NCBI RefSeq assembly: GCF_016107545.1
Contig: NZ_JABASS010000005.1
Coordinates: 1-64,000 of the forward strand
Direction of reading: 5' to 3'
Length of the DNA: 64,000 bases
From: Psychrobacter namhaensis
Lineage (GTDB): Bacteria; Pseudomonadota; Gammaproteobacteria; Pseudomonadales; Moraxellaceae
The notes under the pieces are model-generated. The model did not search any database. It saw nothing but the letters and a program-made list of their open reading frames with translations, and was not told where the DNA came from. Position numbers and translations under genes: made by a program. Of the stretch, positions 56,643-63,105 are shown in pieces (the first letter of the stretch is position 1; each line of letters starts with the position of its first letter).

Positions 56643-58211
56643 TTAATCGGTACCAAATTGTTGGCGTTTTTTGGCAAAGAAGCGGTCTAAACGATCCATT
56701 GCATCTTCTAAGTCATGAAGGTTTGGTAAGAAGACCAAGCGGAAATGATCGGGCTTGTCCCAGTTAAATCCTGTGCCTTGTACCATTAAGACGTTTTCTT
56801 CAATCAGCAAATCCATCATAAAGTCCATGTCGTCTTCAATAGGGTAAACCTCAGGGTCCATCTTGGGAAAACAGTAAAACGCGCCTTGCGGCATGGTGCA
56901 AGAAATACCTTTGATGGCATTAAGTCGTGATACTGCCATTTCGCGCTGCTTATACAGGCGACCTTTTTGAGACGTTAAATCCTTCATACTTTGGTAGCCG
57001 CCCATCGCTGTTTGGATGGCATATTGACCTTGGACGTTGGAACACAGACGCATAGAGGCCAGCATATCTAAGCCCTCAATAAAGTCAGCCGCGTGTTGCT
57101 TGCGACCTGATACCATCATCCAGCCTGCGCGAAACCCAGCGATACGGTGCGATTTTGACAAACCATTGTAGGAGAGGACAAGCACATCGTCGGTTAAGGT
57201 ACTCATTGGCGTGTGGGCCATATCATCATAAAGAATGCGATCGTAAATCTCATCGGCCATGATGATTAAGTCATGCTCTTTAGCGACTTCAATAATCTGT
57301 CGGAGTACGTCATCGCTATAAAGGGCACCCGTTGGATTATTGGGATTAATGACCACAATCCCCTTGGTTTTATCGGTGATTTTAGATTTGATATCTTCGA
57401 TATCAGGGTGCCAGTTGTCGTCTTCATTACAGCGATAATGCACCGCTGTACCACCCGATAGATTGGCCGCTGCTGTCCAAAGCGGGTAGTCTGGCATCGG
57501 AATCAACACTTCATCACCATCGTTCATCAAAGCCTGCATGGTCATCACAATCAGCTCAGAGACCCCATTACCCAAATAAACATCACGGACATCGACCGCT
57601 GACAACAACCCCTTTGATTGGTAATACTGCAATACCGCCTTACGTGCTGAAAAAATTCCTTGCGAGTCAGAATATCCTGTGGCTTCAGACAAATTCATGG
57701 TCACATCACGCAAAATCTCATGAGGCGCTTCTAGTCCAAAGGGGGCGGGGTTACCGACGTTAAGTTTTAATATACGTTTACCTTCTGCCTCCATTCTATT
57801 AGCGGTCTGTAATAGAGGGCCGCGAATGTCATAGCAAACGTTTTGTAGTTTATCGGACTTTTTTATTGTACTCATAGAGTGACCACTCATCGGGTTGTTT
57901 TGTGAATGTTTGCGAGTATCAGAGGCTGTGTGTGCGACATTTAAATGAGGCGGGTTTTTATCATTAGATTGGTTTTGCCGCTCACCGCGTAATAGATATC
58001 CTTCGCTACAGCCCAAGATACGCGCTAGGGTTGGTAGCTTAGAGGACACAATGCCATTTGTTCCACGCTCCCAATTAGAAATCGCGCCGCGACTCACCTT
58101 GGCACCGGCTGCTGTCATCGCTTGGGCTAATTGCTCAGCCGTGAGTCCTTTTTCACGGCGCAACCGCACCAGTCGTTCCGCTTGCGTACTGTTACTATTG
58201 TCATCAGACAT
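56643..58211 (-). CDS. XRE-type HTH fused to an alanine-transaminase-like aminotransferase
   Basis: Bifunctional protein of 522 residues. Residues about 10-75 form a Cro/C1-type HTH (RLVRLRREKGLTAEQLAQAM, then SRGAISNWERGTNG, then LARILGCSEGYLLRGE). A polar linker of about residues 76-115 leads to a fold-type I aminotransferase resembling AlaA: YDIRGPLLQTANRMEAEG, LKLNVGNPAPFG, YLGNGVSELIVMTMQAL, NPNNPTGALY and the PLP lysine in YNGLSKSHRIAGFRAGW (about K353). The catalytic set looks intact, so it probably transaminates pyruvate/glutamate/alanine. The HTH suggests it also binds DNA and may sense PLP or amino acids. It is divergent from msrB; two inverted repeats lie in the gap. Confidence 0.9.
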   Translation of the reverse strand: MSDDNSNSTQAERLVRLRREKGLTAEQLAQAMTAAGAKVSRGAISNWERGTNGIVSSKLPTLARILGCSEGYLLRGERQNQSNDKNPPHLNVAHTASDTRKHSQNNPMSGHSMSTIKKSDKLQNVCYDIRGPLLQTANRMEAEGKRILKLNVGNPAPFGLEAPHEILRDVTMNLSEATGYSDSQGIFSARKAVLQYYQSKGLLSAVDVRDVYLGNGVSELIVMTMQALMNDGDEVLIPMPDYPLWTAAANLSGGTAVHYRCNEDDNWHPDIEDIKSKITDKTKGIVVINPNNPTGALYSDDVLRQIIEVAKEHDLIIMADEIYDRILYDDMAHTPMSTLTDDVLVLSYNGLSKSHRIAGFRAGWMMVSGRKQHAADFIEGLDMLASMRLCSNVQGQYAIQTAMGGYQSMKDLTSQKGRLYKQREMAVSRLNAIKGISCTMPQGAFYCFPKMDPEVYPIEDDMDFMMDLLIEENVLMVQGTGFNWDKPDHFRLVFLPNLHDLEDAMDRLDRFFAKKRQQFGTD

Positions 58212-58292: not shown

Positions 58293-58311
58293 ATGCAAGA
58301 TATTATTGCAT
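58293..58311. promoter_or_regulatory. Inverted repeat A: ATGCAA-N7-TTGCAT, candidate operator
   Basis: Perfect dyad with 6-bp half-sites and a 7-nt spacer (GATATTA), 82 bp upstream of the HTH-aminotransferase start. Another copy with the same half-sites and spacing is 65 bp away. Confidence 0.6.
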
Positions 58312-58355
58312 AATGAAGGCGATTGCAAGGCGTTATTCATTCAAAATTACTCATG

Positions 58356-58378
58356 AAATGCAAGTATAACTTGCATTT
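58356..58378. promoter_or_regulatory. Inverted repeat B: AAATGCAAGT-ATA-ACTTGCATTT, candidate operator
   Basis: Perfect 10-bp inverted repeat with a 3-nt centre. Its core ATGCAA-N7-TTGCAT (58358-58376) equals repeat A exactly in half-sites and spacing. It lies between the HTH-aminotransferase and msrB genes, 229 bp from the msrB start. Confidence 0.65.
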
Positions 58379-58606: not shown

Positions 58607-59032
58607 ATGCAAGACAATCAACTAAGCAAAGAAGAAATCAGCCAGTTAACCGAAGCTGACTGGAAAGAGCGTCTGAGCGCTGATGAGTATCATGTGATGC
58701 GCGAAAAAGGCACAGAACGTCCGTTTACAGGTGTCTATAACGATGCGACTGATGATGGTATTTACCGCTGTAAAGGCTGCGGGGCCAGTTTGTTCGACTC
58801 ATCTAGTAAATTTGATGCCAGCTGCGGTTGGCCAAGTTTCGATCAAGGCATCGATAACAACGCGATTGAAGAGCATGTCGATAACTCGCTAGGTATGACT
58901 CGTACAGAAGTAACGTGTAGCAACTGCGGTGCCCATTTGGGTCACGTTTTCCCTGATGGACCGCGTGAGACCACAGGGATGCGCTACTGCATCAACTCTG
59001 TTTCTATTGATTTGGATAAGTCTGAGAAGTAG
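58607..59032 (+). CDS. msrB: Peptide methionine-R-sulfoxide reductase MsrB
   Basis: Reduces methionine-R-sulfoxide in proteins. Zinc ligands are CKGCG (C55, C58) and CSNCG (C104, C107), the conserved [22 protein letters not shown] block is split across residues 110-130, and the catalytic Cys is C128 in MRYCINS. C73 in SCGWPSF is the likely resolving or substrate-near residue. Length of 141 without a signal peptide indicates a cytosolic enzyme. AAGGA precedes the ATG. Confidence 0.97.
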
Positions 59033-59103: not shown

Positions 59104-59177
59104 ATTATTTATACGGTGAATGAGGTATAAATGCTTAATAGACACCCCCAACAAATCAGTCAATTTAAGGATAAATG

Positions 59178-59663
59178 ATGAGCCCTATTTATGAATTTAC
59201 TGCTGAGCGCATGGATGGCACCTCACAAGCGTTTTCTGACTATCAAGGTCAGGTGTTACTCATCGTCAATACCGCGAGCAAATGTGGATTTACGCCGCAA
59301 TTCGAAGGACTAGAAGCGCTGTATCAACAGTATAAAGAGCAAGGGTTGGTCATCATCGGCTTTCCTTGTAATCAGTTCGGTAACCAAGATCCCGGTAGTA
59401 ATGATGAGATTGGCGCGTTTTGTCAAAAGAACTACGGTGTCAGCTTCCCAATGATGGCAAAGGTCGATGTCAATGGCGATGAGGCGCATCCACTCTTTAA
59501 ATGGCTTAAAAGTCAAAAGGGCGGTGTGCTCACCGATGGTATTAAATGGAATTTCACCAAGTTTTTGATTGGTAACGATGGGCAAGTTATCGAACGTTAT
59601 GCCCCAACCACCAAGCCAGACGCGATCAAAAACGATATCGAGCAAGCACTCACCAATAAATAA
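59178..59663 (+). CDS. Glutathione peroxidase (thioredoxin-type, Cys-based)
   Basis: Cys-type glutathione peroxidase/thiol peroxidase. The peroxidatic site is NTASKCGFTPQFEGL (C36 from this start), then IIGFPCNQFGNQDPG with the second conserved cysteine, and WNFTKFLI with the conserved Trp. Length 161 fits. The ATG at 59178 follows AAGGA by six bases; a tandem ATG at 59175 is possible. It lies 145 bp after msrB, both being oxidative-stress enzymes. Confidence 0.94.
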   Translation: MSPIYEFTAERMDGTSQAFSDYQGQVLLIVNTASKCGFTPQFEGLEALYQQYKEQGLVIIGFPCNQFGNQDPGSNDEIGAFCQKNYGVSFPMMAKVDVNGDEAHPLFKWLKSQKGGVLTDGIKWNFTKFLIGNDGQVIERYAPTTKPDAIKNDIEQALTNK

Positions 59664-61902: not shown

Positions 61903-63105
61903 TTATTCGGCAACGTCTAAGTCAGCCACTGCTTTTTCGATACGTGATAAGGCATCTTTTAAGGTGGCTTCATCGGTTGCGTAAGAGATACGCATGTAAC
62001 CGCCAAGGCCAAATGCATCACCAGGGACCACGGCCACACCGACTTTGTCTAATAACCATTCTGAAAACTCCGTACATGATGAGAGACCAGCGGCTTTAAT
62101 GAGTGGTTTGATTTCTGGGTACACGTAAAACGCGCCATCAGGGCGCAGGCAAGTGATGCCTTTAATAGCATTCAAACCGTTAACTACAAGGTCACAGCGC
62201 TGCTCAAATGCGGCTACCATCGGCGTGAGGACACTTTGGTCACCACTGATTGCGGCTTCTGCCGCCACTTGGCTAATCGAGGTTGGGCATGAGGTGGATT
62301 GTGATTGTACCTTTTTCATGGCACCGATTAGCTTAGCAGGGCCACCAGCATAACCGATACGCCAGCCTGTCATTGCGTACGCTTTAGACACACCATTTAG
62401 AATGATCGCGCGGTCTTTTAGCTCAGGTGCTGCATTTAAGATATTGTAGAACTGATCACCCGTCCAGCGGATATGCTCGTACATGTCGTCTGAGGCTACA
62501 TAGACTTGTGGATGCTTTTTCAGTACTTCAGCGATGGCTTTTAGCTCATCTAACGTATAAATCATACCCGTTGGGTTAGAGGGGCTATTCAATACCAACA
62601 GTTTGGTCTTGTCAGTAATGGTAGCTTCCAACTGCTCAGCGGTAATCTTAAAGTTTTGCTCAGCAGGGCATTTAACGATGACTGGCACGCCTTCTGCAAT
62701 GATGACCATGTCAGGATAGCTGACCCAGTATGGCGCTGGGATGATGACTTCATCGCCTGGGTTGATAAAGGCTTGGGCAAGGTTAAAGAACGACTGTTTA
62801 CCACCGACCGATACTAGGATTTCGTTTGGCTCATAGCTGATGTCGTTGTCGCGCTTGAATTTCTCTATGATGGCGGTCTTTAGCTCTGGCGTACCATCGA
62901 CAGCCGTGTATTTAGTAAAGCCGTCATTGATCGCATCGATGGCTGCTTTTTTGATGTGTTCAGGGGTATCAAAATCAGGTTCACCAGCGCCCAAACCGAT
63001 AATATCTTTGCCCGCTGCTTTGAGCTCTTTGGCTTTATTGGTAATCGCTAGCGTAGGTGATGGTTTGATGTTGTTGACGCGGTCAGACAGTTGCAACTCG
63101 CTCAT
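61903..63105 (-). CDS. Aspartate aminotransferase (pyridoxal-phosphate, class I)
   Basis: Fold-type I aminotransferase of 400 residues. It opens LSDRVNNIKPSPTLAITNKAKELKA, with GLGAGEPDFDTPEHIKKAA, YTAVDGTPELKTAI, LNSPSNPTGMIY and the PLP lysine in NGVSKAYAMTGWRIGYAGG (about K240). These fit the thermophile/Rhizobium-type aspartate aminotransferase (AspB/AatA) rather than E. coli AspC. Keto-acid specificity cannot be fixed from sequence. Its paralogue is the aminotransferase part of the HTH fusion 4 kb away, but the two are only distantly alike. Own terminator follows. Confidence 0.93.
   Translation of the reverse strand: MSELQLSDRVNNIKPSPTLAITNKAKELKAAGKDIIGLGAGEPDFDTPEHIKKAAIDAINDGFTKYTAVDGTPELKTAIIEKFKRDNDISYEPNEILVSVGGKQSFFNLAQAFINPGDEVIIPAPYWVSYPDMVIIAEGVPVIVKCPAEQNFKITAEQLEATITDKTKLLVLNSPSNPTGMIYTLDELKAIAEVLKKHPQVYVASDDMYEHIRWTGDQFYNILNAAPELKDRAIILNGVSKAYAMTGWRIGYAGGPAKLIGAMKKVQSQSTSCPTSISQVAAEAAISGDQSVLTPMVAAFEQRCDLVVNGLNAIKGITCLRPDGAFYVYPEIKPLIKAAGLSSCTEFSEWLLDKVGVAVVPGDAFGLGGYMRISYATDEATLKDALSRIEKAVADLDVAE

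Follow-up and report, generated by a model that had tools for sequence, protein, structure and literature searches.

Candidate operators for autorepression by an alanine aminotransferase with a fused DNA-binding domain in Psychrobacter

Upstream of the gene for the alanine aminotransferase AlaA, Psychrobacter genomes carry two inverted repeats (dyads), one of which surrounds the -10 box of the gene's putative promoter. In these bacteria, AlaA itself has an additional N-terminal DNA-binding domain of the XRE type. We think it very likely that the dyads are operators of this adjacent XRE-AlaA fusion, which would repress its own gene. If so, then in Psychrobacter, Moraxella, and related genera, the enzyme would control alanine synthesis as its own repressor, without a separate regulator. 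The analysis concerns a window (the whole stretch of DNA that was analyzed) of 64,000 nucleotides from Psychrobacter namhaensis.

A DNA-binding domain fused to AlaA

The fusion protein and its parts are encoded as follows:

56643..58211, minus strand: XRE-AlaA fusion, 522 amino acids, a DNA-binding domain joined to an alanine (glutamate-pyruvate) aminotransferase
57984..58187, minus strand: XRE / P22-c2-repressor-like helix-turn-helix (HTH) domain, approximately residues 9-76 (from Pfam HTH_19 and HTH_3, PDB, and AlphaFold2)
57870..57974, minus strand: flexible linker, residues 80-114, of variable length in the alignment and predicted to be disordered (pLDDT below 50)
56646..57866, minus strand: AlaA aminotransferase domain, approximately residues 116-522, with the PLP lysine K353 in GLSKSHR (from 4cvq and the alignment)

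The N-terminal domain is of the Cro/C1 type. It matches HTH_19 (31.7 bits, with a cutoff of 30.2) and HTH_3 (29 bits, with a cutoff of 23) from Pfam, and the best matches of its profile in PDB are to the P22 c2 repressor (1adr, 2r1j, and 3jxb). AlphaFold2 predicts the five helices of an XRE/HTH_3 domain at residues 10-75, with pLDDT values of about 75-94. (The AlphaFold2 model is usable for the XRE domain only; a shallow alignment left the aminotransferase part poorly modeled.)

The remainder of the protein is AlaA. Residues 94-513 match E. coli AlaA (PDB 4cvq, E = 7.5e-169), and the C-terminal domain matches the fold-type-I aminotransferases (PF00155, 8.7e-59); the score against NCBIfam's equivalog for alanine aminotransferase, NF006230, is below the cutoff (352 vs. 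534 bits). K353, Y127, I129, and R130 do not vary among 21 aligned relatives. They correspond to the catalytic Lys240 and the plug residues Tyr15, Ile17, and Arg18 of E. coli AlaA, which is a dimer (PMC4094517). Since all of these catalytic and plug residues are present and invariant, the fusion should be an active aminotransferase. The window also encodes a second class I aminotransferase (61903-63105), which shares about 29% identity with the AlaA domain and has no DNA-binding domain.

All 100 of the Psychrobacter genomes that we sampled encode AlaA, and we found the fusion at nearly every locus that we examined in this genus. When we scanned 84,980 genomes with the XRE-domain alignment, we obtained 104 stretches; 80 loci were kept, and all of these are from Psychrobacter or Moraxella atlantae.

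Two dyads upstream of alaA

The XRE-aminotransferase gene (minus strand, start at 58211) and msrB (plus strand, start at 58607) are separated by a gap of 395 bp. The gap contains two dyads, whose centers are 65 bp apart:

58293..58311, minus strand: proximal dyad ATGCAAGATATTATTGCAT (ATGCAATAATATCTTGCAT in the orientation of the gene), candidate operator, centered at 58302
58358..58376, minus strand: distal dyad ATGCAAGTATAACTTGCAT (ATGCAAGTTATACTTGCAT in the orientation of the gene), candidate operator, centered at 58367
58607..59032, plus strand: msrB, peptide-methionine R-sulfoxide reductase, divergent neighbor of alaA

The original prediction described two copies of ATGCAA-N7-TTGCAT centered at 58302 and 58367, 65 bp apart, and its coordinates are exact. 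The arms are longer than it stated: the distal site is a perfect inverted repeat of 23 bp (AAATGCAAGT-ATA-ACTTGCATTT, 58356-58378), the half-site that is conserved across the genus is WTGCAAG, and the refined consensus for the candidate operator is WTGCAAG-N5-CTTGCAW. A genome scan for ATGCAA-N7-TTGCAT and an alignment of Psychrobacter relatives, which were proposed as checks along with the prediction, both came out in its favor. The 2.90 Mb genome has no exact matches other than the two dyads, and both dyads are found again ahead of the XRE-AlaA gene in about 100 genomes of Psychrobacter. (The pattern with its arms in reversed order has no matches in the 2.90 Mb genome.) By an order-1 estimate, about 1.2 exact dyads per genome are expected by chance, and a single one is unremarkable; the probability of two within 110 bp is about 5.5e-5 (also an order-1 estimate).

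Within the genus, exact matches to ATGCAAN7TTGCAT were found in 87 of 100 genomes, mostly one or two in each, upstream of the fusion. TGCAAGN5CTTGCA was likewise found in 87 of the 100, with about one copy in each, at alaA. In the orientation of the gene, the usual layout is WTGCAAG-N5-CTTGCAW for the distal site and ATGCAATAATATCTTGCAT for the proximal site. Across 38 dereplicated distal sites (76 half-sites), positions G3, A5, A6, and G7 of WTGCAAG are invariant, in a search where G7 was mandatory and a single mismatch was tolerated among the remaining letters of the arms. Additional matches to TGCAAGN5CTTGCA in these genomes are sporadic, so we do not claim a regulon; their spacers are also GC-richer. 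XRE-AlaA looks like a local autoregulator, with its own gene as the only clear target.

A putative promoter within the proximal dyad

The proximal dyad and its asymmetric spacer (TAATATC or TAAAATC) are intact at 98 loci from the genus (93 distinct contexts). The spacer includes a predicted promoter element:

58300..58305, minus strand: predicted -10 box TAATAT, which is the spacer of the proximal dyad and is kept in 93 distinct contexts
58323..58328, minus strand: predicted -35 box TTGCAA, 17 bp from the -10 box, with TTGC kept at the 17-bp spacing

TTGC is conserved 17 bp upstream of TAATAT, with variable flanks. Because the proximal site and this TTGC are both conserved, the proximal dyad appears to bracket the -10 box of alaA; the putative XRE-alaA promoter is TTGCAW-17-TAATAT, and the dyad is centered on its -10 box. 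When the adjacent C is included, the -35 box doubles as a single half-site of the operator (CTTGCAA, or CTTGCAW across the genus). TAATAT matches the -10 consensus at 4 of 6 positions, and a scan with a generic promoter consensus did not flag TTGCAW-17-TAATAT, so the assignment of the promoter rests on its conservation. The original prediction missed that the proximal dyad straddles a promoter, as well as the other DNA-binding domains and candidate operators of AlaA in relatives (see below).

In part of genus g10 (L152, L153, L155, L156, L163, and L164), the site comes immediately after a TTGCAA-17-TATGAT promoter and covers the start. These predicted placements, over the -10 box or after the promoter, are repressor positions. 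An autoregulatory repressor is expected to have an operator over its own promoter, and this is the arrangement we found, given a promoter that is assigned by sequence alone.

Given that the predicted -10 box of alaA forms the core of the proximal dyad, autorepression is the best model. As in E. coli, the AlaA part would be a PLP enzyme that forms dimers, and the two tethered XRE domains of a dimer would bind the two half-sites of one dyad. With the proximal dyad around the -10 box and an additional half-site over the -35 box, a bound fusion would keep RNA polymerase off the promoter. The distal dyad would be a second, more symmetric site, which might raise the local concentration of the protein or be bound cooperatively at a flexible distance. 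The effector might be the substrate or PLP state of the enzyme, or the signal might simply be the enzyme's level.

XRE proteins can activate as well as repress, and an activator could also make use of a second site at a varying distance upstream of the promoter. For example, binding of the fusion to the distal site might recruit RNA polymerase to alaA. But the best-conserved site overlaps the -10 box, which is the usual position for a repressor, and at the g10 loci listed above, the site is over the start and after the promoter. We consider activation to be very unlikely.

The dyads follow the XRE domain

Across the family, some AlaA loci have the XRE domain and others do not. We scored a dyad as present if there was a site within two mismatches of TGCAAGN5CTTGCA. 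Among the loci on our tree, dyads are present for 26 of 29 XRE-AlaA, for 0 of 36 bare AlaA, and for 0 of 19 AlaA that are fused to a StbA-like domain (described below). In order-1 shuffled sequence, the rate is 2-3%. One locus within the XRE clade (L183, from genus g10) has lost both the XRE domain and the dyads. For each pair of domain and operator, the tree has 2 strongly supported independent contrasts, which is too few for a significance test; none are in the wrong direction.

The three XRE-fused loci without a dyad at this threshold are L148, L161, and L162, and another (L147) has one weak match, at -325. In L161, the recognition helix starts with SK, not SR, and TAAAG-N5-CTTTA lies upstream. 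This may be a changed operator (a post hoc observation from one genome).

These patterns make the fused XRE protein by far the strongest candidate for binding the dyads. A separate, stand-alone regulator (such as an amino-acid-responsive repressor) might bind them instead, with the XRE domain acting elsewhere: symmetric sites of this type are common to many regulators, some XRE-fused loci lack the site, and alaA of E. coli is under a separate regulator, Lrp. However, the dyad is nearly unique to the alaA promoter, it is confined to lineages that have the XRE fusion, and it is gone where the XRE domain was lost. Also, all 80 of the loci from the scan of 84,980 genomes with the XRE domain are from Psychrobacter or Moraxella atlantae. 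A stand-alone regulator thus seems unlikely. The proposal of paired operators with the fused XRE protein as their binder is strengthened by the conservation of the sites, their co-occurrence with the XRE domain, and their near-uniqueness; what does not carry over are the phased loop and the coupling to msrB.

Spacing of the dyads and the role of msrB

The 65 bp between the dyads had been read as about six helical turns, with looping between the sites. Among dereplicated loci, the spacing varies from 44 to 92 bp and shows no significant helical period. The best periodicity is at 10.0 bp, with R = 0.38 (p ~ 0.06, uniform null). Because the phase is not significant, same-face looping is not established.

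The original prediction also suggested that the loop could couple the expression of the aminotransferase to that of msrB. The dyads do lie within a shared divergent region, and msrB adjoins alaA in most Psychrobacter genomes. Yet msrB is also divergent from and adjacent to most of the bare AlaA genes, where there are no dyads (0 of 36), so the sites do not follow msrB. Conversely, dyads are present at three XRE-fused loci that have no msrB within reach (L149, L150, and L158). The distance to msrB is highly variable (about -265 to -663), the spacing of the dyads lacks a significant helical phase, and the -10 box inside the proximal dyad is alaA's own. In light of these results, msrB is probably not a target of the dyads, and it is highly improbable that they belong to msrB or that they couple it with alaA via a phased loop.

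Directly downstream of msrB is a glutathione-peroxidase-like gene (59175-59663 of the window), which suggests that these two genes form an oxidative-damage neighborhood. At L178, L179, and L181, a conserved TTATATTTACGC...CTAG-like element is found on the msrB side of the gap; it is possibly msrB's own regulatory site.

Other N-terminal domains on AlaA

Across the order, no fewer than five types of N-terminal domain are found on AlaA (P22-c2-like XRE, StbA-like, P22-Cro-like, and two without a match in Pfam), and for each of the five types, there are candidate sites in the alaA promoter.

In genera g9 and g15, AlaA from many of the loci L175-L180, L186-L205, and L214-L215 has a domain that is similar to StbA from plasmids. 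This N-terminus matches StbA in PDB (7pc1, E = 1.8e-4) and NCBIfam's NF041290 (E = 6.2e-5, but with just 23.6 bits vs. a cutoff of 100). Among the loci on the tree, at least two GTAAGCAA direct repeats are found upstream of 19 of 19 StbA-fused alaA and 0 of 36 bare alaA. The repeats are at about -51, -82, and -104. On the tree, StbA-fused and bare AlaA from g15 are interspersed, which suggests that the StbA-like domain was lost several times; few of the branches are strongly supported.

A third domain (FVGELKKGR), from genus g13 (L216-L222), is HTH-like by eye and has no significant match in Pfam; a conserved ATAGGGAATAKCCTAT is found upstream. A fourth domain (MYFVNKKNN), from genus g11 (L223-L226), also has no significant match in Pfam. 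It is presumed to bind DNA, and GACAGATAG-like repeats are found upstream. In family f25 of the same order (L327-L331), AlaA has a P22-Cro-like N-terminus in all 5 genomes (PF14549, 1.1e-6, just below the curated cutoff), and a palindrome of the type TGTCAA...TTGACA is upstream in 2 of the 5. The candidate operators for g13, g11, and f25 are preliminary. Among the upstream extensions of AlaA in other families, only those from f25 (L236-L238) are real domains. We rejected the other long upstream open frames (L227-L235 and L239-L246), which look like chance run-through, often in GC-rich genomes.

On a tree of AlaA domains, the XRE, g11, g13, f25, and g9/g15 proteins group in separate clades, which is consistent with at least five separate gains of a domain. 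We lean towards the view that, within this one order, the housekeeping enzyme AlaA acquired DNA-binding domains that are unrelated to each other on at least five occasions, that each fusion became autoregulatory with a new operator in the alaA promoter, and that domain and operator were lost together. Such repeated gains of unrelated DNA-binding domains and matching operators would amount to a natural experiment on the origin of transcription factors from enzymes, a question that can be tested directly by comparing close relatives that have the domain with those that lack it.

Comparison to known regulators

We did not find any description of XRE-AlaA or StbA-AlaA in a library of open-access papers. 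The nearest known kind of regulator is MocR/GabR, which has a GntR-type HTH on an aminotransferase-like domain and whose operators are often direct repeats (PMC5320631). MocR/GabR and the fusion share an N-terminal DNA-binding domain, a linker, a fold-type-I PLP domain, and sites near their own promoter, and by analogy, XRE-AlaA may work similarly. However, the HTH of the fusion is XRE (P22 c2-like) instead of GntR-type: XRE-type models match it, while no GntR-type match was found at E up to 0.001. Since it carries an XRE domain, it is not a member of MocR. Also, its enzymatic domain is a canonical AlaA in which the active-site residues are present, and its own gene is the only clear target. 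E. coli AlaA, which is orthologous to the C-terminal 400 residues of the fusion, has no DNA-binding domain.

The P22 c2 repressor, which gave the best PDB matches for the XRE domain, is not joined to a metabolic enzyme, unlike the fusion. The P22 operator is an inverted repeat whose inner ends are AAG...CTT, as in the candidate sites of the fusion, with a center of 4 bp instead of the 5 bp of WTGCAAG-N5-CTTGCAW.

StbA of plasmid R388 binds direct repeats of TTGCATCAT (PMC3098194). Direct repeats are also found with the StbA-like domain from g9 and g15, which is chromosomal and fused to AlaA, unlike the plasmid protein; these repeats are GTAAGCAA (TTGCTTAC) instead of TTGCATCAT.

More broadly, BirA, PutA, and NadR are trigger or autoregulatory enzymes: they are metabolic enzymes that also bind DNA and control transcription. 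What sets AlaA apart from them is that the DNA-binding domain differs between related lineages, while the enzyme remains constant.
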